24,599 bases of DNA from a virus: IMG/VR virus record IMGVR_UViG_3300011114_000512, positions 1 through 24,599 of that record. One strand, 5' to 3'. Position numbers and translations under genes: made by a program. Positions 637 through 24,599 of this stretch are shown one piece after another (positions within the stretch are counted from its first letter, which is position 1; each line of letters opens with the position of its first letter). The notes under the pieces were generated by a model. The model worked only from the letters and a program-made list of their open reading frames with translations, was not told the origin of the DNA and did not search any database.

Positions 637-1103
637 TGACTACGAAAACACTTTCAAAGAACGGAAAGTTCTTAGGCCGCCCAAGCAAATACGACCCTGC
701 GTATTGCGAGCAAGTTGTTGAGCTAGGTAAGCTTGGCAAGTCACGTTGGGCTATCGCATCAGAGCTGGGTATCACGCCTAGCAATCTCAAAGAATGGGAA
801 GCCGTGCACGAAGATTTTCAGACCGCCTTGGCAATTGCACGTCAAGACGCGTTGGCGTATTGGGAGTCTTTAGCTGAGAATCACATGATTGAGACGCCGG
901 GCGGGCCGAAGATCAACACGGGTCTCTGGTCAAGGAGCATGGCGGCTCGGTTCCCCGAGCAGTATCGTGAGAATTCCAAGATGGAAGTTACAGGCAAAAA
1001 TGATGGGCCTATTGAAGTCGATCACATGCACGACTTTACTGGGCATTTACTAACTGAGCTCTTGGCTGTGCGTCAATCAGATGCTGAGTCCGGAACTGAG
1101 TGA
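636..1103 (+). CDS. terS: Terminase small subunit (DNA-packaging recognition protein)
   Basis: This 155-residue protein has an N-terminal helix-turn-helix: GRPSKYDPAYCEQVVELG leads into a helix pair (SRWAIASELGITPSNLKEW, about residues 36-54). That organisation is seen in phage small terminases and related DNA-binding packaging proteins. The middle (residues 60-115) is helical and could oligomerise; the C-terminus is acidic. Small terminases recognise the packaging site and load the large subunit. The gene directly precedes and overlaps the large terminase by 23 nt, which strongly supports the assignment. The ATG has no Shine-Dalgarno, and no other start lies nearby. Function is assigned from the HTH and position; sequence conservation in this family is weak. 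Confidence 0.85.
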   Translation: MTTKTLSKNGKFLGRPSKYDPAYCEQVVELGKLGKSRWAIASELGITPSNLKEWEAVHEDFQTALAIARQDALAYWESLAENHMIETPGGPKINTGLWSRSMAARFPEQYRENSKMEVTGKNDGPIEVDHMHDFTGHLLTELLAVRQSDAESGTE

Positions 1104-2511
1104 GCAGTTTGCGGAGAAGATTCGCAAAGGGCCTGATCTCAACAAACTCCCCCCTGAGCACAAAGCGGCTACCTTAGCTCGACTCAAATGGTTGGTTGCA
1201 GCCAATAGGCACCAAGTACCACCTTCAGGCGATTGGTGGGATATCTGGCTTCTACTTGCTGGGCGTGGCGCAGGTAAGACTCGGTGCGCAGCTGAATGGG
1301 TGTGGTGGGAAGCGTGGACCAACCCCAATACACGATCCTTAGTCTCAGCTCCAACGTCCGGCGATGTACGTGATGTTTGCTTTGAGGGAGACTCAGGTCT
1401 GCTGAACGTGATCCCCAACATTCTCATTAAGTCATACACCAAGTCGCTGCATGAACTGACACTCATAAACGGGTCGATCATCAAAGGCATTCCTGCGTCT
1501 GAGCCTGATCGCTTCCGCGGACCTCAGTTCCATCGTGGTTGGCTGGATGAGCTGGCTGCATGGGATTACCTTGATGACGCATGGGACATGCTGCAGTTTG
1601 GTATGCGATTAGGCCAGCACCCACGGTTGATATGTACCACAACACCTAAGCCAAAGCCTCTAGTTATTGATCTGGTGGCACGCGATGGCAAGGATGTGGT
1701 GTACACCACAGCTAGTACCTACGACAACATCCAGAACCTCGCTCCAACATTCCAAAAACAAATTCTCCAGTACGAAGGTACTAAGCTTGGGCGCCAAGAG
1801 ATTTACGCTGAAATCATCGACCCTGAAGAAGCCGGCATCGTTAAACGTGCTTGGTTCAAGCTTTGGCCTGCTGAGAGAGCTTTGCCTAAGTTTGAGTATG
1901 TGGTTCAATCCTACGACTGCGCTACGTCTGACAAAACTCGGAACGATCCAACTGCGTGTGTGGTGCTTGGCATCTTTAAACCGAGTGACGATAAGCCGCT
2001 TAGTGCTATGGTCATTGATTGTTGGCAGGAACATCTGCAGTACCCGGATCTGCGACCTAAGGTCGTCGAAGAAGCCAAGTCAATTTATGGTGACGATAAC
2101 GAGTTTGGGAGCGGGAAGAAAGTCGATCTTGTACTTATTGAAGATAAATCAGCCGGCATCAGCCTAATCCAAGATCTGCAGCGTGCTGGCGTACCTGTGA
2201 GAAGCTATAACCCGGGTATGGCAGACAAGATGCAGCGTCTCAATATCGTGGCGCCTATCATCAAGCGGGGTCGCATCTACGTACCTGAGTCTTCCAAGAA
2301 GGAAGGCTATCCTCGTGATTGGGTTGAGCCTTTGATCAGTCAGCTCTGCTCTTTCCCCGAGGTACGACATGATGATTTGGTGGACGCAACGACTCAAGCA
2401 TTAAGAATTTTGCGGGATATGGGATTCTTAGACATCGATCCGGTATACAATGACGAGAGTCAGTATATTGATGAAACACGACCTAAGAGGGTGAACCCTT
2501 ATGCCGCCTGA
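1081..2511 (+). CDS. terL: Terminase large subunit (ATPase/nuclease packaging motor)
   Basis: The 476-residue protein has both terminase domains. The ATPase shows Walker A GRGAGKT at residues 61-67, a Walker B-type GWLDEL at 143-148 (D146, catalytic E147) and a coupling-motif-like ICTTTPKP near 174-181. The C-terminal RNase H-fold nuclease shows the expected acidic residues: D279 in QSYDCATSD, E354-D355 in VLIEDKSAG, and D431-D432 with D435 in RHDDLVDAT. It translocates DNA into the prohead through the portal and cuts the concatemer. Length is typical of the family. The start overlaps the small terminase and has no clear Shine-Dalgarno, so translation is probably coupled. Both active sites look intact. 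Confidence 0.97.
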   Translation: MLSPELSEQFAEKIRKGPDLNKLPPEHKAATLARLKWLVAANRHQVPPSGDWWDIWLLLAGRGAGKTRCAAEWVWWEAWTNPNTRSLVSAPTSGDVRDVCFEGDSGLLNVIPNILIKSYTKSLHELTLINGSIIKGIPASEPDRFRGPQFHRGWLDELAAWDYLDDAWDMLQFGMRLGQHPRLICTTTPKPKPLVIDLVARDGKDVVYTTASTYDNIQNLAPTFQKQILQYEGTKLGRQEIYAEIIDPEEAGIVKRAWFKLWPAERALPKFEYVVQSYDCATSDKTRNDPTACVVLGIFKPSDDKPLSAMVIDCWQEHLQYPDLRPKVVEEAKSIYGDDNEFGSGKKVDLVLIEDKSAGISLIQDLQRAGVPVRSYNPGMADKMQRLNIVAPIIKRGRIYVPESSKKEGYPRDWVEPLISQLCSFPEVRHDDLVDATTQALRILRDMGFLDIDPVYNDESQYIDETRPKRVNPYAA

Positions 2512-3373
2512 GGTAGATCAAGACTTAGCCAAGCTATACGCTGCTATGATGGCCGAGCAAACGCCGCCTACGTATGACGATGGCGCAAGTCTTTTACAAC
2601 GCAACCCCGCAATGATGGACGTCGGTCTATTTGGCAAAGGGCCAAAGCCTAAGCCAGTCGCGCCACCTGTTGACATTCAAAGGCGTAAGCTGTTTGGGCT
2701 AAGTGAAACACCTTCAGCACCTGTACCTGCGCCAATGCCTATGCAGCCTCCTGCGTTATCACCGATGTACAAGGCTCTTACTGCGCCTATGTCAAGGCGT
2801 GATTTCTTAGGGCATACAGCCCGGGCTGCAGGTAACATGGCATTACGTGGCGCATTACCTGAGCTTGGCGCGTTGGCTGAGACTCAAGCGCCTTTAACTG
2901 AAGCTGCTAAAGCTGTAGGCGAAACAGTTGCAGATCCACATGCTGCAATATGGGGCGCATTAAAAAATATAGTACAGGACCGAATACCTGCGTATGACTA
3001 TGACGCAGATTACGCCCGGGACGTATTGCATGACGCAATTACAGAAGGTATTGTGCCTAAAGAAATTGTTAAGAAGTTCAATAAAAAAGATAAACAATTT
3101 GCTGCGCTTGACGAGGCTGGAGACGAAGAAGGTAAATACGAGTTGCACGAAGAAATGCAAGAGCTTTTAGGTAGTTTTATTGATGAGCTAGACCCATCTC
3201 ATGTTTTTAATATGATGGATCAATACGATGTACCTACTGACGCTGGTGATATTGCGGAAATGCTGCATTCACATGGATTTAAACCCGAGCAAATTCATGA
3301 CTTCTTAGATGAGAATCATCCTGGGTATGATGAAGATGTCATCAACGATGTACTCCAAGATTTAGAAGGTTGA
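2501..3373 (+). CDS. Unknown 290-aa protein with internal SRRDFLG motif and acidic C-terminus
   Basis: No family was recognised. The start overlaps the terminase by 11 nt and has AAGAGGG 10 or so nt upstream. Residues 45-95 are rich in proline (low complexity). SRRDFLG at residues 98-104 matches the twin-arginine n-region pattern, followed by an Ala/Leu-rich segment that still contains arginines, so it is a poor export signal. Residues about 190-290 are acidic and helical, ending in repeated D/E-rich turns. It lies between the terminase and the 1430-aa protein, outside the core packaging set, and is followed by a 2-nt gap. A virion-associated or assembly role is plausible but not shown. Confidence 0.8.
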   Translation: MPPEVDQDLAKLYAAMMAEQTPPTYDDGASLLQRNPAMMDVGLFGKGPKPKPVAPPVDIQRRKLFGLSETPSAPVPAPMPMQPPALSPMYKALTAPMSRRDFLGHTARAAGNMALRGALPELGALAETQAPLTEAAKAVGETVADPHAAIWGALKNIVQDRIPAYDYDADYARDVLHDAITEGIVPKEIVKKFNKKDKQFAALDEAGDEEGKYELHEEMQELLGSFIDELDPSHVFNMMDQYDVPTDAGDIAEMLHSHGFKPEQIHDFLDENHPGYDEDVINDVLQDLEG

Positions 3374-3375
3374 CT

Positions 3376-6300
3376 ATGGCAGCCATGTACGATCAATTAG
3401 GTAACTATATAGGCGATGATGGCGTAGGCGCGCAGCCTATGGATGAAATGCGTGCAGCGCTTGCTCTTAAGAGAAATAAGAGATCGCCACTACCTGCAGC
3501 AGTTGCAAATATTCCAAAGATCTCGCCTGAGCTACAAGCACTTATGGCTATTGACGCCAAGCCTTTATCATTGGATGATATATACGCAAGGCTCACAACG
3601 CCTAAAGCCAAGCCTCTTTCACGCACAGAACAATTTACACGAGATATTGGTGAGCTACCTAAGCAGTTTGCTGATGTGGAGAACGTCCTTTTTGGCGGGC
3701 CTACAAGAGCTGCTGTGTTGCAGCCTTGGGAAGCTTTACTAAAGCATGCGTACAAGATGCCCGGCATTGCCTATCGTGAACGCGTTGCCAAGGATCCACA
3801 ATCATTGCGTGAAGCTGCGCAAATGCGTAAAGACTTAGAAGCTTCAACTGGTGAGAATGGGATGTTCCCAACTCAGCCTTTACAAACGCGTGATGGCGAA
3901 GAGTTTGCATCTAACTTTGGCAAGGCGCTTGATACGCTAAAAGTACCAGCTGCTTGGCCTATGGCACCAACGCCTACACGACCAATGCTCACAGGCTCAG
4001 ACATTAGAGCCATGAAAGGCAACGTACAAAATGTTGCGCGCCAAGTGGGTGATATACCTATTGACTATCGCAACGCCCAGTCTGGCTTTACTCGTATGGA
4101 CCCAGTCACAGGTAAGCCAACCGTAGGTGCCAAGGCACAAGCACTGATGGACGATTGGGCCAACGTATTACAGCGCCGCCAAGAGGTAACAGGTACTCCA
4201 ACCTTTGGTGGCATCGCACCCGAGACCAATATGTACGCTGTGCGACCTGATAAGGGCACAAGAATAATACAACCTACTCGTACTGAAGATACATCAAGCC
4301 ATCCATTCTATGTTGACCCACTTACGAATATTATTTCAGAAGTTGCGTCAGTTGCAGAGTTAGACAATAAGAGATTGTTGAATAGGTATACCGACTTGGA
4401 CTCACATCGGTTGCCCTCACAGCGAGGAGCTGCGCTTCCTGTCGCAGTAAAAAGGCAACTTAATAACTACATTACCGGTCGTCTTCAAGAGATATACCCA
4501 AACGTTCCGATACGTAGTGGCGAAGGTGGCGATGATGCATTGCATGCAGCGTTCCAAATTGGAAATAAGCCAACCATACGTGACAAAAAGCTATTAGGTA
4601 TGTATGAGGATTTCTTTAAGACGGATGAAGGTAAAGCCGCAATAGAGCAATCAGGGGGTACGTTAGTGCCACCATCTGTACATGCAGAGCGCCATGCAGC
4701 TGCTTCTAATTGGTTGAATAGTACATTTAAGAACTACCTAGATACTCGAATAGGCACAGCGGCTGACCCATTATTGCAAAAAGCAAGGCAAGGCGTTACA
4801 TATAAGCCTGCGTCAGAGCTAGAAGGGTACGCTGAGTCTGTATCTGACACAGCACGTAAAAATAGAATAGCAGGTGGGTTTCATGAAACCGGTGAATTTC
4901 TTCCAGAGTTTCATGCGCTTGGTGATAGGCTAGACGTTGTTAGCGCTGAGCTTAATGAGCTTGAAGCTCGCAAAGCTGAGATGATTGCAACATTGCCTCC
5001 TGAGTCTGTAATGTACCCAAATGGCCCTGACGCCCCCGGACTTTCGTTTAATGATGTCATTCCTGGGTATAACGACTTCATGCGGGAATATAACGCCAAA
5101 CTTGCTGAGCGCAATAAGCTTCGCAAAGATATAGCTAACTTACGTATTGCGCAAGATTACGAAACCCTTGCTGATGCTGCCGTGCAGCCAAGAATAGTAA
5201 GCAAAGTATTGAATGAATTGCCCGAGCAGGAAAAGCCTTTCTATCCGTCACTTACTCTAGCACCGCCTGAGTCTATAGTCTACAATTTGAAAAAAGGAAC
5301 ACTCGGCGCTCTAGGTATTGATGATATGGTAAATAGCTTTTATAATGATGTTCTTACAGGCAAGGTACCTGTTGAGAAGTTAAAAGGCTTAACCGTTGAT
5401 AAATATGTGCAACAGTATTTTGATAAGCGCCGACTTAGAGAAATAGAAGAAGAAAAAGCCGCGCAAACATATCTTACCAATGTCAATACTGCGCTACAGG
5501 AACGAGTACAGCAGGTACCAAACGATAATATTTTTTATAATGCCGCTGTCATTGAGTTTGACGCCAATACACCAAAAGAGCAAGCGTATAAAGACTTAAG
5601 CGCCGATACTACAATTCTTGATATTTGCGTTGCTGAATGCGGTGGTGCTGACCCAAAGAAAAAGCATTTCATTACTGGTAAGCCGCAAACGCATGAAGCA
5701 ATGTATGACATCACAACAGGTGAGCGTAACCCTAACTCTAATCTAAGCAGAGATTACTCAACATACGCTGATGAAATTTATAATGGTACAAAATTAGCCA
5801 GTATACGAGATAGTACGACAGGCTACCCTGCTGCACTAATACGTATGTCTCCTGCAAGTATGCCTGGGCAATACAATATTAATTGGGTAAAAGGCTATAA
5901 GAATGGCGCAATTGACCGCGCGTATAGTGAAGGTATTGCTGAGTATTTAAACTCTAGAGAAAATGTAATTGCAAGTTCAGGCTCTGAACTGCAAACAAAC
6001 GCAGGTGTGTTTGATACGCAAACGCCTGCAGGTATGCGTTCACTAAGTCAAAGGGTGCCGGGCATGGACCCCGAGGAAGTTAGACACTTGGATTTTGACT
6101 TTGTAGAGCTGCCTCGTTTTGTAACGCAAAAACAATTCAATGAGATTGTTGCAGGGGCAAATGCACACCCGGAAGGATCTCCAACTGCGCCATGGATTCA
6201 AGAATCTACGGCTGATATGCGCAACCGTCTAACTGCGCAGCAATTGGATGAGGCAAATGAGCTGCATACTGAAATTATGGATCAGTTAGAACAGGTTGTA

Positions 6301-7668
6301 TATGACGCCATACAGCGAAATGAGAGCCCACTTTCTGCGCAACGCGACTTTTTACAAGCATTTCGCAATGACCCAACCTACTACGCAGGTGAAATAGACC
6401 CAGATGTTGTTGAGTACGCGATACGCTTTACAGAAGAACAGAACCCAGATATTGCGCCACAGGACACACAAACAGCGCTTAACAATCTTGAGTATGCGCC
6501 TTCACGTGCATTGGCGCAACAGCAACAAAACATGACGCCGCCTCGGCCTGTAGGTGAACTATATCAAATGTTTATCGACGTGGTTGACAATTCAATTGAA
6601 GAAGGTAGCTTTGGCCCCAATGATTACACAGCAAGAGAGTTTGCAGAGCGTATCAGAAATGACGAGGTTGGCGGGATTGGCGACTTGACACCACAAGAGC
6701 GTGAGATATTGGCTAATGCAGTGGAAGAGGAAGGGTATAACCCCGGCGCGTACTTCCCGCCTGAGCCAGAACAATTGGCGCCTACTGACATGCGAACTCG
6801 TCTTGCAGAACTTGACATTGAGTATGGTCGCATAACTGATGACATAGATGAGCGGCTTGCCTTAGAAGAGCAAGGCCTGCCTATAGACGAACGAGCTCTA
6901 AATGATTTGCGCGAACAAGCAGCGCAAATTATACAATTGCGCAATGGATTGCGTAATCAATTGGCTCCACCACCTGCTGAAGTGCGACTACCCCCTGAAG
7001 ATCTTGGCTTATTTGAACCTGACCCTACGCACCCTGCTAACAGGCCTGTTGCGTCAACACAAGCGCCAACAGCAGAACTTTATACGCAAGAGCTTAATCG
7101 TTTAAATGCACGACATGACGCCCTTACTAATGATATTGCAGAGTGGAATCGCCAAATGCTCCCATACATTAGGCGTGAGAATGACGGCACTATAACGCCT
7201 GAACAGTTACGTGATTTAGAAAATTTGCGTGATCAGTATGATGATACTGTGCGTGAAATGCGAAATACGCAACAGCAAATTAGCGAGACTGCAAGACAGC
7301 AACAAGCAGCATTTGAAATGCAGCAAACGCCTCAGCGCAATGCAGTTACGCCTAACATAAGCACTTTATCAGATACTGAATTATCGCAACGTCTTTCTAT
7401 TGAGCAATCAACGCAGGTGCAAAATGTATTTGCGCAAATTGTGCGCAATGCGCGTGAGTCCAATATTGCGCTTACACCAGAACTGATTAATAACATTAAC
7501 AATTGGTCATTTACCGCACGAGCCTTAGCGCCTGAGCAAAAAGAGTTTTTAAAGCGCTTACTTATACGACACATTCAACGTGAGCGTGGCGTTGGTTTCG
7601 CCAAAGGCGGCACAGTGCGTATTGCAAAAACAATTCCCGCCATGCGGGCTGAACTTCGGAGAACCTAA
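3376..7668 (+). CDS. Giant 1430-aa multidomain protein with PcfJ-like core (large polyvalent-protein type)
   Basis: The start is placed at ATG 3376 because AGAAGG (3364-3369) lies 6 nt upstream; an in-frame TTG at 3370 would leave no spacing. Residues about 746-865 resemble the PcfJ-like domain of phage and mobile-element polyvalent proteins: DICVAECGG (C751), then a Y-x-x-EIYNG segment, SIRDSTTGYPAALIRM, and WVKGYKNGAID near 837-848. This similarity was recognised by eye. Predicted coiled coils lie near 517-600, 1136-1195 and 1234-1320, with Gln-rich stretches. The C-terminus carries FAKGGTV at 1408-1414, a motif shared with smaller proteins here. The stop overlaps the portal ATG by 1 nt. 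It could be an ejected internal virion protein or a cytoplasmic accessory factor; no enzyme motif was identified. Confidence 0.85.
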   Translation: MAAMYDQLGNYIGDDGVGAQPMDEMRAALALKRNKRSPLPAAVANIPKISPELQALMAIDAKPLSLDDIYARLTTPKAKPLSRTEQFTRDIGELPKQFADVENVLFGGPTRAAVLQPWEALLKHAYKMPGIAYRERVAKDPQSLREAAQMRKDLEASTGENGMFPTQPLQTRDGEEFASNFGKALDTLKVPAAWPMAPTPTRPMLTGSDIRAMKGNVQNVARQVGDIPIDYRNAQSGFTRMDPVTGKPTVGAKAQALMDDWANVLQRRQEVTGTPTFGGIAPETNMYAVRPDKGTRIIQPTRTEDTSSHPFYVDPLTNIISEVASVAELDNKRLLNRYTDLDSHRLPSQRGAALPVAVKRQLNNYITGRLQEIYPNVPIRSGEGGDDALHAAFQIGNKPTIRDKKLLGMYEDFFKTDEGKAAIEQSGGTLVPPSVHAERHAAASNWLNSTFKNYLDTRIGTAADPLLQKARQGVTYKPASELEGYAESVSDTARKNRIAGGFHETGEFLPEFHALGDRLDVVSAELNELEARKAEMIATLPPESVMYPNGPDAPGLSFNDVIPGYNDFMREYNAKLAERNKLRKDIANLRIAQDYETLADAAVQPRIVSKVLNELPEQEKPFYPSLTLAPPESIVYNLKKGTLGALGIDDMVNSFYNDVLTGKVPVEKLKGLTVDKYVQQYFDKRRLREIEEEKAAQTYLTNVNTALQERVQQVPNDNIFYNAAVIEFDANTPKEQAYKDLSADTTILDICVAECGGADPKKKHFITGKPQTHEAMYDITTGERNPNSNLSRDYSTYADEIYNGTKLASIRDSTTGYPAALIRMSPASMPGQYNINWVKGYKNGAIDRAYSEGIAEYLNSRENVIASSGSELQTNAGVFDTQTPAGMRSLSQRVPGMDPEEVRHLDFDFVELPRFVTQKQFNEIVAGANAHPEGSPTAPWIQESTADMRNRLTAQQLDEANELHTEIMDQLEQVVYDAIQRNESPLSAQRDFLQAFRNDPTYYAGEIDPDVVEYAIRFTEEQNPDIAPQDTQTALNNLEYAPSRALAQQQQNMTPPRPVGELYQMFIDVVDNSIEEGSFGPNDYTAREFAERIRNDEVGGIGDLTPQEREILANAVEEEGYNPGAYFPPEPEQLAPTDMRTRLAELDIEYGRITDDIDERLALEEQGLPIDERALNDLREQAAQIIQLRNGLRNQLAPPPAEVRLPPEDLGLFEPDPTHPANRPVASTQAPTAELYTQELNRLNARHDALTNDIAEWNRQMLPYIRRENDGTITPEQLRDLENLRDQYDDTVREMRNTQQQISETARQQQAAFEMQQTPQRNAVTPNISTLSDTELSQRLSIEQSTQVQNVFAQIVRNARESNIALTPELINNINNWSFTARALAPEQKEFLKRLLIRHIQRERGVGFAKGGTVRIAKTIPAMRAELRRT
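5611..5955 (+). other. PcfJ-like domain within the 1430-aa protein
   Basis: Residues about 746-860 carry the ordered set of a Cys-Val pair (C751-V752), a loop with Tyr and EIYNG, an IRD-x-x-x-GYPAALI strand, and a VKGYKNG turn followed by a helix. This order is what I associate with PcfJ-like domains (C-V, then S/I-R-D, then K-G-x-x-N). Function of the domain is not established. A profile search would confirm or reject it. Confidence 0.5.
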
Positions 7669-10196
7669 TGGCTACTGAGATGCCCATACCACAAGACTAT
7701 AATCGTTTTGTTGGGCCTATGGCTGATGAGGATGATGATGAACACCAGTTCAACGACATCTTTGATGCTGATATAGAAGAAGATAATATTGAGGAATTGC
7801 CTGATGGGTCGGTCATCGTACGTATGGATGATCTTAAAGGCCCAGATGAAGAGCCTGATTTCTATGAGAATCTGGCTGAGAAATTACCTTCCTATGAGCT
7901 AGGTAACGTGGCCATTAAGTATTTGGATCTTATTGATAAAGATAAAGATGCCAGATCAGAGCGTGATAAGCAATATGAGGATGGGATTCGTCGCACAGGC
8001 TTAGGGCATGACGCGCCGGGTGGAGCATCTTTCCAAGGCGCATCAAAGGTAGTACACCCAGTGATGGCTGAGGCTTGCGTGGACTTCGCAGCAAGAGCTA
8101 TTAAAGAGCTCTTCCCACCGGATGGTCCAGTAAGAACTAAGATCTATGGCGAGGTTACTGAAGAAAAAACTAAGCGTGCTGATCGTAAAAAAGAATTTTT
8201 CAATTGGCAGTTGACTGAGCAAATTGAAGAGTTCCGCGATGAGCAGGAGCAGATGTTTACTCAGATCCCACTGGGCGGCTCACAGTATTTCAAAATCTGG
8301 TACGACGAACAAAAGAAACGCCCATGCGTAGAGTTTGTGCCAATTGATAATATCTATTTGCCTTTTGCTGCTGGTAACTTCTACACTGCAGCTCGTGTTA
8401 CTGAGGTGCAAGATATTACGCAGGAAGAGTTCGAGCTTCGTGTATCGCAAGGCTTGTATTTAGATATTCAGATCCACCGCGCAAGTATGGAGCCTGAAGA
8501 ATCTAAAGCTGAGAAAGCCAATAAAAAGATCGAAGGCAAGGGCTCGCAAAGCGATAATATCGATGGAGTGCGTCGAGTATTTAACGTTTACACTTGGCTT
8601 GAGCTGGAAGATGATAGCTATTCAAAAGGTGAGCGTGCGCCGTATATCTTAACTATCGATGAGATTTCTCGCGAGGTTGTAGGTTTATATCGCAACTGGG
8701 AATTAGGCGATGAGACTCTTTCCAAGATGGATTGGATTATTGAGTTTAAGTTTATTCCTTGGCGCGGTGCGTATGCTATTGGCTTTCCGCATCTCATTGG
8801 TGGCTTATCGGCTGCATTGACAGGCGCATTAAGAGCTTTATTGGATAGCGCCCATATCAATACTGCTCCAACCATGTTAAAGCTCAAAGGGGCCAAGATT
8901 TCTGGCCAAAGTACTACCATTGAGCCTACTCAGATTGCTGAGATTGAAGGCGCCCCGGGCGTGGATGATGTTCGCAAGATCGCCATGCCTATACCATTTA
9001 ACCAACCTAGTCCAGTTTTATTCCAGTTGCTTGGCTGGTTAACTGATGCCGCCAAAGGTGTGGTCACCACTAGTGAAGAGAAGATAGCTGATGTTAGCGC
9101 ACAAGCACCGGTAGGTACTACACAAGCATTGATTGAGCAAGGGGCAGCGGTTTTCTCCTCAATTCATGCTCGTTTGCATGAGTCTCAGAAGAGAGTGCTT
9201 AAAGTTATTGCACGTCTTAACCGTTGGTACCTTGAAGAGCAGCGCTTAAATGATATTGCTGAAGATATTGGTGTCACAAAAGAAGATTTTGAGAAGAATT
9301 CTGACATTGTACCGGTGTCTGATCCACATATCTTCTCAGAAACTCAGCGCTACGCGCAAATTCAAGCACTTGCAGCACGCGCACAGACAAATCCGGACTT
9401 ATATAACCGTCTTGCGGTTGAAAAGCGTATTCTAAGGCAAATCAAAATCCCAGATATCAACGAAGTTCTGCCAGATCCGCAGAATGTGAAGGATATGAAC
9501 CCAGCTTTGGAAAATGTGGCCATGACTGTAGGCAAAGCCGTTGGCGCTTTCCCACATCAGGACCATTTAGCTCACATTCAGGTGTTGCTGGATTACTTAC
9601 AAAACCCAATGTATGGTAGTAACCCCATTATTGCACCAGTTTACCTACCAGCAGCACTTGAGCACCTCAAGCAACACGTTACTTTATGGTATCTCAACCA
9701 AATTGACGTCTACGCAAGCCAAGCGCTAGGTAGACCATTTGATATTATGCGTGAACAGCAGTTACCGCATGATGCTGATAAGCTTTTAGCCGTTTCATCG
9801 CAGCATGTAATGATGGATACCCAAGGCGCATTTGCACAAATACCGCCAATTATCCAAAACGCAATGCAAATGCTGCAGCAAATGAGAGGTTCACCACCTC
9901 CAGACCCAGCAACACAAGCCTTTATGCAAACTTCAATGGCTGAGACACAGCGTCGTGCAGCAAAAGACCAAGGTGATCTGCAATTGAAAGCACAAAAGAT
10001 GGGATTAGATCAGCAAGCACTTGAGAAGAAGTTGCAAACAGATCTAATCTTAAATACTGAGGATAACCTTACTCAGGAACGTATCAAATCGGCTGAGTTG
10101 TCTCATGACGCAGCTTTATTACAGCATGAGCAAGTAAGAACTGCTCTTTCCGCACAGCAAGAACTACAATCTCAATTAGGAGGTCAAAATGTCTGA
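7668..10196 (+). CDS. Portal protein
   Basis: The 842-residue protein is the dodecameric ring at one capsid vertex through which DNA enters and leaves. The N-terminus is strongly acidic (residues 20-62). A highly typical block, GASKVVHPVMAEACVDFAAR then IKELFPPDGPVR, sits near 122-155 and is characteristic of large podovirus-type portals. The C-terminal ~110 residues are Gln/Ala-rich and helical, as expected for a portal barrel/crown. It is longer than T7-type portals (~535 aa). GGAG lies about 6 nt before the ATG, which overlaps the preceding stop (TAATG). Position after the terminase and before scaffold and capsid genes agrees. Identification rests on the conserved block and gene order. Confidence 0.93.
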   Translation: MATEMPIPQDYNRFVGPMADEDDDEHQFNDIFDADIEEDNIEELPDGSVIVRMDDLKGPDEEPDFYENLAEKLPSYELGNVAIKYLDLIDKDKDARSERDKQYEDGIRRTGLGHDAPGGASFQGASKVVHPVMAEACVDFAARAIKELFPPDGPVRTKIYGEVTEEKTKRADRKKEFFNWQLTEQIEEFRDEQEQMFTQIPLGGSQYFKIWYDEQKKRPCVEFVPIDNIYLPFAAGNFYTAARVTEVQDITQEEFELRVSQGLYLDIQIHRASMEPEESKAEKANKKIEGKGSQSDNIDGVRRVFNVYTWLELEDDSYSKGERAPYILTIDEISREVVGLYRNWELGDETLSKMDWIIEFKFIPWRGAYAIGFPHLIGGLSAALTGALRALLDSAHINTAPTMLKLKGAKISGQSTTIEPTQIAEIEGAPGVDDVRKIAMPIPFNQPSPVLFQLLGWLTDAAKGVVTTSEEKIADVSAQAPVGTTQALIEQGAAVFSSIHARLHESQKRVLKVIARLNRWYLEEQRLNDIAEDIGVTKEDFEKNSDIVPVSDPHIFSETQRYAQIQALAARAQTNPDLYNRLAVEKRILRQIKIPDINEVLPDPQNVKDMNPALENVAMTVGKAVGAFPHQDHLAHIQVLLDYLQNPMYGSNPIIAPVYLPAALEHLKQHVTLWYLNQIDVYASQALGRPFDIMREQQLPHDADKLLAVSSQHVMMDTQGAFAQIPPIIQNAMQMLQQMRGSPPPDPATQAFMQTSMAETQRRAAKDQGDLQLKAQKMGLDQQALEKKLQTDLILNTEDNLTQERIKSAELSHDAALLQHEQVRTALSAQQELQSQLGGQNV

Positions 10197-10464
10197 TGAC
10201 ATCAATATGCATAAACGCCTAGCTATGGGCGAAGCCGGTGGTTTTACACAAGCCAAGGGCAAAGGAATTAAAGGCTACAAAGTCGGTGGCGCAGTTATGC
10301 CAGAGAGCAAAACTCGTACACTGATAGAGGACTCTTCACAGAAGCAGCCTCTGCCTAAACCAACCGGTAAGATCGCTACTTTGAAAAAGGGTGGCTCTCT
10401 TAAAGGTCCCGGTCTGACAATCGCAGTAGCACTTCCTATGCGAAAAGCGGGTCGCGGTCGCTGA
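10189..10464 (+). CDS. Small basic KGG-motif protein, unknown function
   Basis: This 91-residue protein starts within the portal gene (8-nt overlap) behind a strong TTAGGAGGT Shine-Dalgarno. It is basic and Gly-rich, with YKVGGAV (residues 30-36) and LKKGGSL. The same glycine-doublet motif recurs in the 1430-aa protein, the 162-aa protein at 15203 and the 191-aa protein at 16157. It has no membrane segment or catalytic motif. It might be a minor virion or DNA-binding protein; this is inference from charge and position. Confidence 0.8.
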   Translation: MSDDINMHKRLAMGEAGGFTQAKGKGIKGYKVGGAVMPESKTRTLIEDSSQKQPLPKPTGKIATLKKGGSLKGPGLTIAVALPMRKAGRGR

Positions 10465-10652
10465 TGAAGACTCTTTCAGACTTTATTGGCCGCATCAAAT
10501 CTGAGCAATCAAAAATTACTGTGGTGTTGCAAGCTGGCACACCGGTAAATTATGAGTCGTATCAGCGCTTGGTCGGCCATTTCCAAGGCTTGGAAGAAGC
10601 TTTGTCGATTCTTGATACTCTTTTGGATGAGGAAAAACGAGATGTCGAATGA
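10464..10652 (+). CDS. Small 62-aa helical protein, unknown
   Basis: This short protein is predominantly helical (SDFIGRIKSEQ; SYQRLVGHFQGLEEALSILDTLLDEE) with an acidic end. Its ATG overlaps the previous stop by 1 nt (TGATG type) and its end overlaps the co-chaperonin start by 11 nt, so translation is probably coupled throughout. The frame is consistent with the packed operon and no overlapping alternative gene exists. I recall similar short proteins in other phages near the portal gene, but cannot name a family. Confidence 0.75.
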   Translation: MKTLSDFIGRIKSEQSKITVVLQAGTPVNYESYQRLVGHFQGLEEALSILDTLLDEEKRDVE

Positions 10653-11064
10653 TATCGCTGAACAAACGCTTGAAGAAGCGTTTCCGTTAGTAGATCCGCT
10701 TATGCGCCCTTATGGTGCTCGTGTCTTGGTGCAGCTTCGTGCCGTTAAAGACAAAGTTACCGCTTCAGGTATCGTATTGGTGGAAGAAACAAAAGAAACT
10801 GAAAAATGGAACACCATGATTGGCAAGATCATTGCCATAGGCCCGCTTGCGTTTATGAAGCGTGACACCATGGAACCATGGCCAGAAGGCGCATGGGCAA
10901 AAATTGGAGATTATGTCCGTGTTCCTAAATGGGGCGGCGATCGTTGGGAAATCGACTTTGAGCATGGCGAACAAAAAGGTAAAGCACTCTTTACTTTTTT
11001 TAATGACCATGAACTCATTGGCGCCTGTACGGGGGACCCCCTCGCAATCAAAGCGTTTGTTTAA
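10642..11064 (+). CDS. GroES-like co-chaperonin (phage Cpn10)
   Basis: The start at ATG 10642 is chosen because GAGGA (10629-10633) lies 8 nt upstream; an earlier in-frame ATG at 10552 lies inside the 62-aa gene without a site. The 140-residue product has a 20-residue N-terminal extension, then PYGARVLVQL (23-32), the mobile-loop region with SGIVLV (42-47), GKIIAIGP (61-68), GDYVRVPKW (89-97) and a C-terminal FTFFNDHELIG strand. The IVL tripeptide at 44-46 is the one by which GroES binds GroEL. It probably caps host GroEL during folding of phage proteins, the major capsid being the usual client (compare T4 gp31). No GroEL is encoded here. It is longer than bacterial GroES (~97 aa). Confidence 0.9.
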   Translation: MSNDIAEQTLEEAFPLVDPLMRPYGARVLVQLRAVKDKVTASGIVLVEETKETEKWNTMIGKIIAIGPLAFMKRDTMEPWPEGAWAKIGDYVRVPKWGGDRWEIDFEHGEQKGKALFTFFNDHELIGACTGDPLAIKAFV

Positions 11065-14208: not shown

Positions 14209-15192
14209 ATGCCTCAATTTTCAGATGACCTATTTCTAGGTCCCGCACAAACTTACATGGGCACAGGTATTCGCCCGTACTCTGTTACCGCTACTGGTGG
14301 TACAGGGGGCTCTTCTTCGTCAACTTTAACAATTACTGCTCTTAATTCAGGCAACCCAATTGTTGTTGGTATGTACGTTGATGGCACTAGCGTTACCGAT
14401 GGCACTTACATTACTGCGTTTGGCTCAGGTACTGGTGGCACTGGTACTTATACATTGAATCAAGCAATTAACATTGCCAGCACAACAGCGTTGACTCTGC
14501 ATGGCAATACTGGGTATGATAACCCATCACCAATGGACTTAGGCGTAGGCCCTCTTGGCCGCGTATATATCTGGGATGTTGTGCCACAAGCTTTAGGCGC
14601 AACCAACATCGCAGCTGCGCAAACAACTTCGTCAGCAATTACTCTAACTGCAAGTACTTCTACAAAATCTGTTATTCGCACTGATGGCACAACTGTTATT
14701 CAGTTGGATTGCCCACGTGCAGTAAGCATTGTTTCTGGTACTGGCACATTGACTAACCGTAACGTAACTATCTCTGGCTACGATTACTACGGCCAAGCAA
14801 TGAGTGAAGTAATTGCTACAGGCACAGTGCAGTCAACCACTGTCCCAGGTAAAAAGGCATTCTTCCAGATTTCTTCAGCAACTATCTCTGGTGCATTAGG
14901 CGCAACAATTGGTATTGGTACTACTGACGTGCTTGGTAGCCCTGTGCGTATTCTTGATAATGCTTACATTATCCACGCTGGGTATAACAATACTTTGGCT
15001 GATAATGCAGGCACTGCAGTTGCTGCTGTTACTGCCGCCGCAACTACAACTACAGGTGATGTGCGCGGTACTTTCACACCTAATGGCGCAACTGACGGCA
15101 TTAAGCGTTTAGTTATGGCCATTGCGATGCCGGGCATTGCTGTAGGCCCTAACGCAACTCGTGTTGGCGCCCTCGGCGTTACACAAGCTTAA
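14209..15192 (+). CDS. Beta-rich virion structural protein with inserted Gly/Thr-rich domain
   Basis: The 327-residue protein starts 8 nt after AAGGAG. The N-terminus (FSDDLFLGPAQTYMGTG) and a central LGVGPLGRVYIWDVVPQ segment are typical of virion proteins that follow the capsid gene in related phages. Residues about 39-97 look like an inserted module with GTYITAFGSGTGGTGTYTLN, a pattern found in many unrelated phage structural proteins. The rest is beta-rich, Thr/Ala/Gly dominated. Likely a capsid-surface or tail-associated protein; exact role unknown. It lies directly downstream of the capsid terminator. Confidence 0.78.
   Translation: MPQFSDDLFLGPAQTYMGTGIRPYSVTATGGTGGSSSSTLTITALNSGNPIVVGMYVDGTSVTDGTYITAFGSGTGGTGTYTLNQAINIASTTALTLHGNTGYDNPSPMDLGVGPLGRVYIWDVVPQALGATNIAAAQTTSSAITLTASTSTKSVIRTDGTTVIQLDCPRAVSIVSGTGTLTNRNVTISGYDYYGQAMSEVIATGTVQSTTVPGKKAFFQISSATISGALGATIGIGTTDVLGSPVRILDNAYIIHAGYNNTLADNAGTAVAAVTAAATTTTGDVRGTFTPNGATDGIKRLVMAIAMPGIAVGPNATRVGALGVTQA
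14323..14499 (+). other. Inserted Gly/Thr-rich beta module in the 327-aa protein
   Basis: Residues about 39-97 contain the pattern V-x-V-G-M-x-V-x-G-T followed by GTYITAFGSGTGGTGTYTLN. Flanking segments (MGTGIRPYSV before, LHGNTGYDNPSPMDLG after) read as one continuous protein without it. The module is common in phage fibre and capsid-surface proteins, so it may have been added by domain shuffling. Boundaries are estimates. Confidence 0.5.
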
Positions 15193-15202
15193 GGAGTATA
15201 GC

Positions 15203-15691
15203 ATGGCTAAGTTTAAACGCGAACCTAAAGAGATGACAACTGAGACTTCGGTTGAGCCTCGTATGAAAAAAGGCATGCCTCCTACGATCCAAAAGACCGG
15301 CGCAATGGGTATGCCTCGTGCAGCACGTCCTAATGTAGCCCCACCTTTAATGGCAGCACCTGCTATGAAAGAAGGCGGCAAGGCAGATATGATGCAAGAC
15401 AAGGCCATGATGAAAAAAGCCTTTAAGCAGCATGATGCGCAAGAGCATAAAGGCGGCAAAGGCACCACACTTAAGTTGAAGCATGGTGGGATGCACACTA
15501 TGAAAAAGGCTACAGGTGGTGTAGCTAATACGCAAGGTGGGTATAAAACTGGTGGCTCGATTAAGCCGTCTGAGTACAAAACTGGTGGCATGATTAGACC
15601 TGCTAAGTACAAAGAAGGTGGCCACGTTGAAATGAAGGGTGACTCTTGTGGCCATACTGTAATGAAGAAAAAATACGGCGGCTCTTGCTAA
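15203..15691 (+). CDS. Lys/Gly/Met-rich KGG-repeat protein
   Basis: The start at ATG 15203 is chosen because AAGGAG (15191-15196) lies 6 nt upstream; an earlier in-frame ATG at 15161 lies inside the previous gene. The 162-residue protein is very basic, rich in Lys, Gly and Met, and probably disordered. It carries many glycine-doublet motifs (MKEGGKA, HKGGKG, LKHGGMH, YKTGGSI, YKTGGMI, YKEGGHV), including three tandem 11-residue units (114-146). It has only two cysteines, both in the last 16 residues (SCGH...YGGSC). No family was recognised. A terminator follows within 10 nt. High basic charge suits nucleic-acid binding or virion DNA condensation, but this is inference. Confidence 0.82.
   Translation: MAKFKREPKEMTTETSVEPRMKKGMPPTIQKTGAMGMPRAARPNVAPPLMAAPAMKEGGKADMMQDKAMMKKAFKQHDAQEHKGGKGTTLKLKHGGMHTMKKATGGVANTQGGYKTGGSIKPSEYKTGGMIRPAKYKEGGHVEMKGDSCGHTVMKKKYGGSC
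15542..15640 (+). repeat. Three tandem 33-bp units coding 11-residue Y-K-x-G-G repeats
   Basis: Units lie at 15542-15574, 15575-15607 and 15608-15640. Each encodes Y-K-[TE]-G-G-x-[IV] followed by four variable residues. The first two share nearly all bases in their first half; the third has diverged. They stay in frame and lie within the KGG-repeat gene. Confidence 0.85.
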
Positions 15692-16156: not shown

Positions 16157-16732
16157 ATGCCTTTAATCAAAAGCAAATCTAAAGAAGCTTTTTCAAAAAA
16201 CATTGCCACTGAAATTAAAGCTGGTAAGCCGCCTAAGCAAGCGGCTGCCATAGCGTATAGCGTAAAGCGTGAAGCGCAAAAAATGAAAGATGGCGGAAAG
16301 CCCGGGCTATGGGCTAATATTCATGCCAAGCAAGAACGAATTAAGCATGGTTCTGGTGAGCGTATGCGCAAGCCGGGATCTGAAGGCGCGCCTACTACAG
16401 CTGATTTTAAAGCGGCTGCAGGTACTGCAAAAATGGCAAAAGGTGGCGACCCTAGATTATCTGTTAGTCGTGGTGAAAAGCTACCTACAAGTCAAGGCGC
16501 AGGCCTTACTCAGAAAGGTCGAGATAAATTTAATAGGGCAACCGGTAGTAACCTTAAGGCACCACAAGCAAAGGGTCCAAGACATGATTCTTTTTGCGCA
16601 CGTATGAGTGGTATGCCGGGGCCTATGAAAGATGATAAGGGCCAGCCTACTCGAAAAGCTGCATCTCTTAAGCGTTGGCATTGCGCAGATGGTGGTTCTT
16701 TGACAGCTACAAAAAAGACAGGAAGGTGGTAA
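16157..16732 (+). CDS. Basic three-module protein with SFCARMSGM and KRWHC motifs
   Basis: The 191-residue basic protein joins three segments that I recall as separate small conserved modules in phages and large DNA viruses. Residues 1-40 ([20 protein letters not shown], then [12 protein letters not shown]) resemble one. Residues 46-88 ([15 protein letters not shown], then [14 protein letters not shown]) resemble a second. Residues 120-178 ([33 protein letters not shown]) form a third with two cysteines that could bind metal or form a disulfide. KGG-type motifs (MKDGGKP, MAKGGDP, CADGGSL) separate or end the modules. Domain names (DUF5872/DUF6321-like) are from memory and unverified. It begins 2 nt after the preceding stop. 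Possibly virion or DNA associated. Confidence 0.82.
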
Positions 16733-21265: not shown

Positions 21266-22972
21266 ATGGCAATTCATGGTTATCCCGGTCAGATAATAAG
21301 TGCCAACAGACCTATACCGTTTGGCTCAGGCATCTGGACGCTTTCGACGCTTAAAGGCTACTCCACTGTTGTGCAGATATTTAATGCGACATCTACGTGG
21401 GTATGTCCTCAAGGTGTTACGTCTGTAGAGTATTTGGTTGTTGGTGGTGGCGGTGCTGGTGCGGCAGGCAGGGCCGGTGTGGGCGGTGGTGGCGGTGGAG
21501 GTGCTGGCGGTTTTCTTGCTGGCTCTGCACTAGCTGTTACACCCGGAACTTCATACACAATTACTGTGGGAGCAGGTGGAGCATCTGTTGCTGCTGGAAC
21601 ACCTAGTAATAATGGTTCAAATTCTACATTTATATCTATAACTTCAACTGGTGGTGGTGGTGGATGCTTTGGAAGTACAGGAGCTTCAGTGGCTGGTAAC
21701 GCTGGCGGTTGTGGTGGTGGGGGTACAGCCGCAGGAAGTCGCGGGGATGCTGCTGGCGGTGCTGGAAATACGCCATCAACCACTCCATCGCAGGGTAATT
21801 CTGGTGGTATTGGAAAAGATGCTGGGCCAAATTATGGTGGCGGAGGTGGGGGCGGAGGCGGCGCTCAAGGTTCAAACGGCACTGGTTCTGCTGGAGGTAA
21901 CGGCGGCATTGGTTTAGGGTCTGGACTTAGTGGTGTTGGTACTTATTATGCTGGTGGCGGTGGTGGTGGTACATATACTGCGTCAGGCCCCGGAACGGCG
22001 GGAATTGGCGGTTTAGGTGGGGGGGGTAATGGCTCTAATACTACTAGTGCTGCTGGCTCAAACGGCACTGGAAATACTGGTTCAGGTGGCGGTGGTGGCG
22101 CATCAAACGGTTCTGCATCTAGTTCTGGCGCAGGCGGCTCAGGCATAGTCATCCTTAGATACCAACAGCCCGGCGTTACTGTTGTGACGTTTAACAGCAC
22201 TACTACTTACACAATGCCGACTAATGTTGCTTATGCTGACTACTTAATTGTTGGCGGCGGCGGTGGCGGTGGCTCTGGAACTCCATCCCCCGGTGCATCT
22301 GGTGGCGGCGGAGGCGCAGGTGGGTTTAGAACTGGAACAGGCGCTGCTGTAACTGGCGGGGCTTCATATACTATTACTGTTGGTGACGGCGGTGCTGGAG
22401 GTTCTAACAGTGTTGGAACTGTTGGCAATCCTTCTTCTGTTGTAGGTGGAGCATCTCCATTTGCATCTCCCGGAATTGTTTCTGCTGGTGGTGGATATGG
22501 CGGCGCTGGTGCAACTGCTGGCGGAGCGGGTGGTTCAGGCGGCGGTGGTTCTGGCGGTGGTAGTGCAACCGCTGGTGGTGCTGGCAATACTCCTTCTACA
22601 TCTCCATCACAAGGAAACAATGGTTCTGCTGGTAATGGTGCAGCAAGTTATGGCGCTGGAGCGGGAGGCGGTGCTAGCGCAATAGGCGGTACTTCATCTG
22701 GCTCTTCTGCTGGTACTGGTGGAATAGGTATGGCATCTGGCATAAGCGGCTCTAGTGTTACTTATTCTGGCGGTGGTGGTGGTGGCATTGATTCAGGAAC
22801 AAGGGGAATTGGTGGCGCTGGAGGAGGTGGGTCAGGTGGTTCATCTACTCCAACAATTGCATCTACCGCAGGGACAGCCAATACAGGCGGTGGAGGTGGT
22901 GGTGGCGCTTACCCATCTGGAACAGGCGGCACAGGCGGCTCAGGTATTGTTATTCTTAGACTATATTCGTAA
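21266..22972 (+). CDS. Glycine-rich tail adhesin, two domains
   Basis: The 568-residue protein has a short attachment-like N-terminus (HGYPGQIISANRP then SGIWTLSTL) followed by two ~263-residue glycine-rich domains. Each starts with a beta strand (YLVVGGGG or YLIVGGGG), contains poly-Gly tracts and a GNTPSTxPSQG motif, then a SGxxx-Y-[AS]-GGGGGG segment, and ends in SGIVILR. Such domains occur at phage tail tips; poly-Gly tracts could form polyglycine II sandwiches as in T4-type gp38 adhesins, though direct homology is not claimed. AAGGGG precedes the ATG. It is followed 8 nt later by a paralogue. Likely receptor binding. Confidence 0.85.
   Translation: MAIHGYPGQIISANRPIPFGSGIWTLSTLKGYSTVVQIFNATSTWVCPQGVTSVEYLVVGGGGAGAAGRAGVGGGGGGGAGGFLAGSALAVTPGTSYTITVGAGGASVAAGTPSNNGSNSTFISITSTGGGGGCFGSTGASVAGNAGGCGGGGTAAGSRGDAAGGAGNTPSTTPSQGNSGGIGKDAGPNYGGGGGGGGGAQGSNGTGSAGGNGGIGLGSGLSGVGTYYAGGGGGGTYTASGPGTAGIGGLGGGGNGSNTTSAAGSNGTGNTGSGGGGGASNGSASSSGAGGSGIVILRYQQPGVTVVTFNSTTTYTMPTNVAYADYLIVGGGGGGGSGTPSPGASGGGGGAGGFRTGTGAAVTGGASYTITVGDGGAGGSNSVGTVGNPSSVVGGASPFASPGIVSAGGGYGGAGATAGGAGGSGGGGSGGGSATAGGAGNTPSTSPSQGNNGSAGNGAASYGAGAGGGASAIGGTSSGSSAGTGGIGMASGISGSSVTYSGGGGGGIDSGTRGIGGAGGGGSGGSSTPTIASTAGTANTGGGGGGGAYPSGTGGTGGSGIVILRLYS
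21371..22162 (+). repeat. Glycine-rich adhesin domain, copy 1
   Basis: Spans from the strand before TWVCPQGVTSVEYLVVGGG to SGIVILRY, 264 codons. Contains GNTPSTTPSQG near 21763-21795. Alignable with three other copies by protein pattern, not by DNA identity. Confidence 0.8.
22181..22963 (+). repeat. Glycine-rich adhesin domain, copy 2
   Basis: Spans from the strand before TYTMPTNVAYADYLIVGGG to SGIVILRL, 261 codons. Contains GNTPSTSPSQG near 22583-22615 and GSSVTYSGGGGGG. Same order of landmarks as copy 1. Confidence 0.8.
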
Positions 22973-22980
22973 GGTGAACG

Positions 22981-24599
22981 ATGAGTAATTATCCCGGTCG
23001 GATCATCACAAAGAATCCGGTAACAATATCTACCACATCAGCTTCAGGTATCTGGACGCTGCAACAGGCGCTGCAAGCTATCAAATCAGGCGTGTGGCCC
23101 GGTATCGGCTCGACTGTTTCACAGAGCTTTACTTCTTCTGGTTACTGGACAGCACCTGCTGGTGTTACGCAGGTGGATTATCTGGTTGTGGCTGGCGGTG
23201 GGTCTGGTGGTGGTAATGCTGCCCCCGGCTCCCAAGTAGGTAGCGGCGGCGGTGGAGCTGGTGGATTTAGAACTGGAACTGCTTTAACTGTTGTGCCGGG
23301 TACTACGTATGCTGTAACTGTTGGCGCAGGCGGTGCTGGCTCGTCAACTGGTCAAGGTTCTAGTGGTACAGCTTCTATATTTTCGGCAGTAACTTCAACA
23401 GGCGGCGGTGCTGGTGGATGTCAATTAGCTTCTGGTACTAGCGATGTTACTGGTTTAAATGGTGGTAGCGGAGGCGGTGGAAGTTCAACTTCTGGATTAA
23501 CTCCGGGGCCGGGTGGTTCTGGTAATACCCCTAGCACAAGCCCATCACAAGGAAGCAACGGTGGTTCTGGTACTTATACTAGCCCATCATACGGCGGTGG
23601 CGGTGGTGGTGGAGCATCTGCTGTAGGTGCAGATGGAACAAGTGCTGCTGGTGGTAATGGCGGAAATGGTACTGCTTCTACATTATCTGGTTCTTCTGTC
23701 ACTTACGCAGGTGGTGGCGGTGCAGGTACATTTACATCAGGCACTCTTGGTACTGGTGGCACAGGCGGTGGTGGTAATGGGGGCAGGGGAAGTTCTCCTG
23801 CTTCTGGCGCTGGTACGGCTAACACAGGCGGTGGCGGTGGCGGTAATGGTGGAAGTTCTACTATTGCAGGTGGCGCTGGCGGCAGCGGTATAGTCATCAT
23901 CAGATACGTAGCCCCAGTTATTAGCTCTGTTACCTTTACATCTACACAGTCATATACGATACCTGCTGGTGTTACTAGCGTGGACTACGTAGTTGTTGCC
24001 GGTGGTGGTGGTGGTGGTTCTCGTCATGGCGGGGGCGGTGGTGGTGGAGCAGGTGGGTTTAGAACGGGGACTGCTTTTGCCGTAACTTCAGGTAATACAT
24101 CAACTATTACTGTGGGTGCTGCTGGGTCTGCATCTACAAATGCAATAGGTGGAACTGGAGGTAATTCTACTTTTTATACCATTACATCTAACGGCGGCGG
24201 TGGTGGAGGTGGAGGAAGTGCGCCTTCTACTATTGGTGCTAATGGCGGTTCTGGTGGTGGTGGTGGGGAAGTTTCAAACACTTCTTATGCTGGTGGTGCT
24301 GGAAATACTCCTGCTACTTCACCAAGTCAAGGAAATGGTGGTGGTGCATCATTAGCTAATGGCACAACACAAATTAGAGGCGGTGGTGGAGGTGGAGCAT
24401 CTGATACTGGTGCTACTGGAACTGTATCTGGTAATGGTGGTGCTGGGTTTTCTTCAGCTATTTCTGGTACATCAGTAATGTATGCTGGCGGTGGAGGCGG
24501 AGGCGCATTTTATTCAGGCACGGCTGGTTCTGGTGGTTCTGGTGGTGGTGGAAACGGAAACGGTGCTGGTGGAGCAACGGGAACAGGAACTGCTGGAAC
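22981..24599 (+). CDS. Second glycine-rich tail adhesin (3' end beyond window)
   Basis: This open frame runs from ATG 22981 to the window end with no stop (539 codons seen). AAGGTG (22971-22976) precedes the ATG. The N-terminus (SNYPGRIITKNP, then SGIWTLQQALQAIKSG) matches the start of the upstream adhesin in its YPG-x-II and SGIWTL elements, so the two are paralogues from a gene duplication. Two glycine-rich domains are visible: one complete (23119-23907) and one cut by the window end. Landmarks are repeated: YLVVAGGG or YVVVAGGG, GGFRTGTA, GNTPSTSPSQG and GNTPATSPSQG, SGSSVTYAGGGG and SGTSVMYAGGGG. Likely receptor binding at the tail tip, alone or with its paralogue. Confidence 0.85.
   Translation, partial: MSNYPGRIITKNPVTISTTSASGIWTLQQALQAIKSGVWPGIGSTVSQSFTSSGYWTAPAGVTQVDYLVVAGGGSGGGNAAPGSQVGSGGGGAGGFRTGTALTVVPGTTYAVTVGAGGAGSSTGQGSSGTASIFSAVTSTGGGAGGCQLASGTSDVTGLNGGSGGGGSSTSGLTPGPGGSGNTPSTSPSQGSNGGSGTYTSPSYGGGGGGGASAVGADGTSAAGGNGGNGTASTLSGSSVTYAGGGGAGTFTSGTLGTGGTGGGGNGGRGSSPASGAGTANTGGGGGGNGGSSTIAGGAGGSGIVIIRYVAPVISSVTFTSTQSYTIPAGVTSVDYVVVAGGGGGGSRHGGGGGGGAGGFRTGTAFAVTSGNTSTITVGAAGSASTNAIGGTGGNSTFYTITSNGGGGGGGGSAPSTIGANGGSGGGGGEVSNTSYAGGAGNTPATSPSQGNGGGASLANGTTQIRGGGGGGASDTGATGTVSGNGGAGFSSAISGTSVMYAGGGGGGAFYSGTAGSGGSGGGGNGNGAGGATGTGTAG
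23119..23907 (+). repeat. Glycine-rich adhesin domain, copy 3
   Basis: Spans SQSFTSSGYWTAPAG to SGIVIIRY, 263 codons, with GNTPSTSPSQG near 23519-23551. Same landmark order as copies 1 and 2. Confidence 0.8.
23926..24599 (+). repeat. Glycine-rich adhesin domain, copy 4 (truncated by window end)
   Basis: Starts at SVTFTSTQSYTIPAGVTSVD and reaches past the SGTSVMYAGGGGGG landmark. GNTPATSPSQG lies near 24300-24332. The closing SGIVI-type strand is not yet reached. Confidence 0.75.

Follow-up and report, generated by a model that had tools for sequence, protein, structure and literature searches.

Our analysis of a stretch of viral DNA (IMG/VR virus record IMGVR_UViG_3300011114_000512, positions 1 to 24,599; this whole stretch of 24,599 nt is called the window) points to a probable effector gene lodged between the genes for the terminase TerL and the portal. 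The gene, an intact open reading frame (ORF) at 3376–7668 on the plus strand, encodes P0001, a protein of 1430 amino acids (aa). On balance we think that P0001 is probably an effector of the polyvalent type that is loaded into the virion, with a divergent PcfJ-like, GNAT-like domain and a C-terminal docking tag, and that the place of its gene is a cargo slot.

The ORF begins with an ATG (a TTG at 3370 is an alternative start) and, as an earlier note on this DNA had said, is the largest gene of the window and lies between terminase and portal, with TerL and a gene for a 290-aa protein on its 5’ side, the portal gene on its 3’ side, and start/stop overlaps (Table 1). The earlier note had also looked to conservation in relatives, and it is there: close relatives in IMG/VR carry the protein in the same slot at 63–82% identity, and distant ones at 33–37% identity, their TerL and portal proteins being ~89–92% and ~81–85% identical to those of the window. 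Measured against relatives, the ratio of non-synonymous to synonymous substitution rates (dN/dS) of P0001 is 0.20–0.33, showing that the protein is under purifying selection, maintained yet fast-evolving; together with the slot shared by the relatives, this ratio argues that the ORF is not a chance one.

PcfJ-like homology and predicted fold

The PcfJ signature is HCVGGYC, and a scan of IMG/VR for this motif defined a canonical phage PcfJ-like family, in which all 36 scanned proteins match the Pfam model PF14284. Aligned as profiles with hhalign, the P0001 family and the phage PcfJ-like family match with E 3.7e-23 (Prob 99.5), colinearly over residues 436 to ~930. Each half of the match stands by itself (1.8e-18 for the helical half, 1.6e-10 for the PcfJ half), while controls with reversed, portal and TerL profiles gave E ~0.15 or more. 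Shallow alignments gave weak hhalign matches, and it was the deeper sequence set that made the match clear. A comparison of P0001 with PcfJ-like proteins by hmmsearch gave 3e-18 in a database of seven sequences, and a Foldseek search of BFVD with the structure model of the window protein found annotated PcfJ-like proteins at E 1.6e-12, 2.2e-9 and 8.1e-7; the PcfJ-like protein of EFDG1 superposes on the model at 2.4 Å over 76 columns (E 4.9e-3). The PcfJ-like core that the earlier note had placed near residues 740–870 is thus confirmed by profile and by structure, and not by any single-sequence match in Pfam: PF14284 matched neither P0001 (E cut-off 1) nor the core taken by itself (E cut-off 10). 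Likewise, PHROGs and NCBIfam held no significant family match to P0001, tblastn against 50,697 phage records detected no relative of it, and hhalign found no profile match for its middle region (residues 191–429). The sequence-profile search of the PDB returned only SecB (E 0.14), which we dismissed as chance.

The signature itself is not intact. It reads DICVAECGG in the window and DICTAECGG in the relative L005, DHCV(A/T)EGG in near relatives, and HC(V/I)GxC is kept in distant ones; because of this decay we class P0001, from its sequence, as a divergent phage PcfJ-like homologue and not as a canonical member. The closest comparison is with WJZ48068, the PcfJ-like protein of phage DSL-LC04, and with the HCVGGYC family of IMG/VR (PF14284), with which P0001 shares the TerL–portal slot, the colinear helical module and PcfJ domain, and GG motifs. 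In contrast to them, P0001 falls below Pfam detection, has a decayed HCVGGYC with an insert, carries extra N- and C-terminal regions, and has a different second half of its C-terminal tag. In the literature searched we found no functional description of PcfJ-like proteins; queries for PcfJ mostly brought up the pCFJ plasmids of C. elegans.

Structure models suggest what kind of domain this may be. Residues 430–960 of P0001 were modelled with a predicted local distance difference test score (pLDDT) of 82, and the canonical relative L089 with a pLDDT of 86. Model residues 290–450 of the window protein match HAT1 (Z 7.8), RibT, VipF and other GNATs, and for the L089 model all 50 of the 50 PDB matches listed have the GNAT fold, the best being HAT1 (Z 8.6, 3.9 Å over 130 residues), although Z-scores of this size can reflect a common arrangement and the GNAT fold is to be taken as a prediction. 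The order of elements in the window model (strand, helix, helix, three strands, helix, strand, helix) is compatible with GNAT. After strand 4, canonical proteins have a conserved QIKGKxN where the window has WVKGYKN, and in our reading the canonical version resembles the acyl-CoA pyrophosphate loop of GNATs, (Q/R)xxGx(G/A). In the fold and the order of strands and helices predicted by the models, the PcfJ-like domain resembles GNAT acyltransferases such as HAT1, RimI and AtaT/TacT, to which it has no sequence match. We predict a GNAT-type acyltransferase fold for the domain, whose target, now or in the past, is probably a macromolecule of the host or of the phage. The same model contains long helices or coiled coil at residues ~509–602 and 674–712, which bears out part of the claim that three coiled-coil regions surround the core. 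Model residues 63–176 also matched SMC, LSD1, SerRS arms and helical pore-forming proteins, which we put down to generic coiled-coil similarity.

Occupants of the TerL–portal slot

Portal-anchored searches of IMG/VR with four query portals yielded 155 loci that contain both TerL and portal; these closely resemble the queries and in many cases one another, so that counts among them are not independent events. A gene lies in the slot in all 155, a PcfJ-like one in 53 and one for another large protein in the rest, and among the at least 80 loci listed by the HCVGGYC scan the gene is nearly always between TerL and portal where flanks are available. The slot holds an annotated PcfJ-like protein in DSL-LC04 (PF14284, 5e-9), a GP88 protein in a Manatee Spring phage, and two unassigned genes in pelagiphages, in whose published description the slot is not discussed. 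The layout, for which the earlier note had proposed a synteny search, is therefore not peculiar to this phage, and to call it an arrangement without known counterpart would be too strong, given DSL-LC04 and dozens of IMG/VR contigs. Probable cargo proteins of this kind occupy one and the same gene position in many freshwater phages. The largest PcfJ-like slot protein seen, of 2004 aa, is at L103:7257–13268 (minus strand) and combines the PcfJ-like part with ART-PolyVal and DUF7178.

The variety of the slot bears on the possibility that P0001 is not an enzyme but an internal structural protein or one for ejection (core, scaffold or pilot), whose coiled coils and tag help in assembly or in the ejection of DNA and whose PcfJ-like part is a scaffold-like remnant. 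The gene does adjoin the portal, and the long helices or coiled coil of the model would suit such a role, as would the decayed PcfJ signature and the relaxed selection on that domain. On the other hand, related phages fill the slot with unrelated proteins, and Caulobacter and Roseobacter phages leave it empty, a variability not expected of a core structural part; homologues, moreover, include ART and further enzyme domains. We consider the structural role unlikely.

Domain content points instead to effectors. A Pfam scan of 36 PcfJ slot proteins found, besides PcfJ in each, five ART-PolyVal (5/36 proteins thus combining it with PcfJ), five LPD23, one sigma70_r4_2 and one cell-wall hydrolase; among non-PcfJ cargo it found eight ART-PolyVal, six GP88 and one SLT, and LPD23 too. 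Polyvalent proteins are large and modular, are encoded near virion genes, and have been argued to be packaged and injected with phage DNA, with GNATs typically adjoining ART domains (Iyer et al. 2017, PMC5512222); the main text of that paper does not mention PcfJ. P0001 is like them in that its gene lies among the late, virion genes of a terminase–portal phage and that slot relatives carry ART-PolyVal and LPD23, and unlike them in having no second recognised effector domain. The suggestion that this is a multi-purpose protein delivered with DNA gains indirect support from the fusion of slot proteins to ART-PolyVal, LPD23 and GP88, a hallmark of polyvalent proteins (PMC5512222); the delivery itself is something we infer.

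P0001 could instead be a late-expressed intracellular effector or anti-defence protein that stays unpackaged and acts within the producing cell, its tag targeting a host or phage complex; polyvalent-type domains might act anywhere in the cell, and packaging is likewise deduced. This we hold to be improbable in view of the fixed position of the gene in the head and packaging module, the presence of the tag in other proteins of the virion region, and the published tie between the polyvalent class and virion genes (PMC5512222).

The C-terminal GG tag

P0001 ends, as had been noticed earlier, in FAKGGTV and a basic tail (residues 1408–1430). In distant relatives no other block is as well conserved as its last 30 residues (66% identity), which follow non-homologous sequence; the consensus of the block in relatives is G(F/Y)AKGGxV...K(T/S)IPAMRAEL. 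FAKGGTV is one instance of a strict motif, (F/Y/M)(A/K/R)xGGx(V/I), which was defined after viewing the sequences, so that its statistics are descriptive and not proof. The strict motif is found in 55 of 63 complete canonical slot proteins (shuffled mean 1.0), within the last 60 residues in 36 of the 63 (shuffled 0.04), and in 63/97 non-PcfJ slot proteins of the Manatee lineage (shuffled ~1). It is absent from 57 TerL, 52 portal, 12 major capsid protein (MCP) and 23 GroES sequences taken from the loci of the canonical slot proteins. The strongest points concerning the tag are that the terminal block is conserved where non-homologous sequence precedes it, and that it recurs in unrelated cargo.

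A bipartite form, in which the motif is followed by (S/T)Ixx-M(R/K)xxL, belongs to the Manatee lineage and to that of the window: it occurs in 10/10 W-type proteins, 42/97 Manatee non-PcfJ proteins and 3/11 Manatee PcfJ proteins, and in none of the PcfJ proteins of the canonical lineage (0/32 and 0/75); shuffles gave zero. By these counts, the second half of the tag seems to go with the lineage of the phage and not with the family of the cargo (p ~0.013 for PcfJ proteins only, the sequences not being independent). The virion region of the window and of its relatives has further genes with related GG motifs; phage RW, where the slot gene is missing, has hardly any such motifs. A small basic protein encoded at 16157–16732, near the capsid genes, has repeated GG motifs and matches eleven PHROGs of unknown function.

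We also considered that the GG motif could be a recombination or module-junction site in the DNA and not a protein signal, given that copies stand between modules as well as at ends and that N-terminus and cassettes are swapped. However, 117 instances of the motif have 114 different 21-nt sequences, which places the constraint at the protein level, and the motif clusters at C-termini; an origin at the DNA level is accordingly disfavoured and in our view highly improbable.

That unrelated cargo in one slot shares a tag suggests that effectors are brought into the particle by a shared mechanism. The tag of P0001, FAKGGTV followed by the short amphipathic IPAMRAEL, would probably bind a head component specific to the lineage, be it portal, scaffold or capsid, while the head is being assembled, and P0001 thus docked would be enclosed in the head and enter the cell with the DNA. 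Short tags that load cargo into an HK97-type shell are known from encapsulin cargo-loading peptides and the T4 capsid-targeting sequence; the comparison is one of working principle only, with no sequence relation to the GG tag.

Weight of the evidence and wider meaning

Several observations weigh against P0001 being a virion-loaded, enzymatic effector. TerL and portal have no gene between them in Caulobacter phage RW and Roseobacter phage CRP-902, so the slot gene is dispensable to the packaging machinery. P0001 has no significant family match in Pfam, whose PcfJ model misses it when searched alone, and no effector domain besides the PcfJ-like one was recognised in it. The fold matches have moderate scores, with Z no higher than 8.6 and Foldseek E of 0.02 or worse against the PDB. 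The window and L005 lack the conserved His of HCVGGYC, and the PcfJ-like domain has a comparatively high dN/dS (0.38–0.39), so that catalysis may have been lost in the window protein. The strict motif is rare in pelagiphage slot proteins (5/39), and the tag, which small basic proteins of the virion region carry too, could serve as a linker or bind some other partner.

Table 1. Features of P0001 and of its surroundings in the window.
Feature	Position	Strand	Basis or remark
TerL, 5’ border of slot	1081..2511	+	Terminase_6N 2.5e-25
290-aa gene, same slot	2501..3373	+	in several close relatives; absent in L004, L005, L162
Slot protein P0001, divergent phage PcfJ-like putative cargo protein, 1430 aa	3376..7668	+	ORF map, relatives, hhalign, dN/dS
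N-terminal part, ~residues 1–190	3376..3945	+	other sequence instead in L004/L005, which also lack the 290-aa gene (alignment, ORF map)
Conserved middle region, residues 191–429	3946..4662	+	lowest dN/dS of P0001, 0.09–0.10
Helical module, residues 436–705, common to phage PcfJ-like proteins	4681..5490	+	hhalign E 1.8e-18; model helices
WLNSTFKNYLDTRIGTAADP in helical module	4711–4770	+	
PcfJ-like domain proper, residues 706–945, predicted GNAT-type fold	5491..6210	+	hhalign E 1.6e-10; models, fold searches
Motifs in PcfJ-like domain	DICVAECGG 5620–5646; SIRDSTTGYP 5800–5829; NINWVKGYKN 5875–5904; FVTQKQF 6118–6138	+	
Cassette-like, length-variable region, residues 946–1350	6211..7425	+	alignments with relatives
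C-terminal tag GFAKGGTVRIAKTIPAMRAELRRT	7594..7665	+	FAKGGTV 7597–7617, IPAMRAEL 7633–7656
Portal, 3’ border of slot	7668..10196	+	phrog_1216 1.8e-19
Small basic protein after portal	10189..10464	+	two related GG motifs (YKVGGAV, LKKGGSL)
Basic protein near capsid genes	15161..15691	+	five related GG motifs

Among the neighbouring genes, the 290-aa gene (2501–3373) encodes an internal Tat-like SRRDFLGHTARAAG (SRRDFL) around residue 99, kept in relatives as TRRDFL and SRRQFL, and the slot protein gp42 of pelagiphage HTVC027P has SKRKFIKLGAGLMSLP, which may be set beside it. A GroES-like co-chaperonin (Cpn10) is encoded between portal and MCP (10552–11064) and is conserved across the phage group. 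In the tail region, 21266–24597 encodes two consecutive proteins, apparently tandem paralogues, both matching phrog_2295 (3e-85 and 6e-84) and phrog_863.

We propose that this phage group fills the TerL–portal slot with large, modular, fast-changing effectors of the polyvalent type. In a broader version, which we offer tentatively and regard as doubtful, a modular docking tag, particular to the lineage and made up of the GG motif and a short helix, would load interchangeable, unrelated slot effectors into the head, and the widespread PcfJ domain would be a GNAT-type acyltransferase effector. The predicted GNAT fold, the fixed slot and the shared tag turn the recurrent ‘PcfJ-like’ annotation of phage proteins into a set of testable hypotheses. 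If true, a portable loading tag would explain how effectors are swapped freely within one phage lineage, and would offer a handle on what phages inject.

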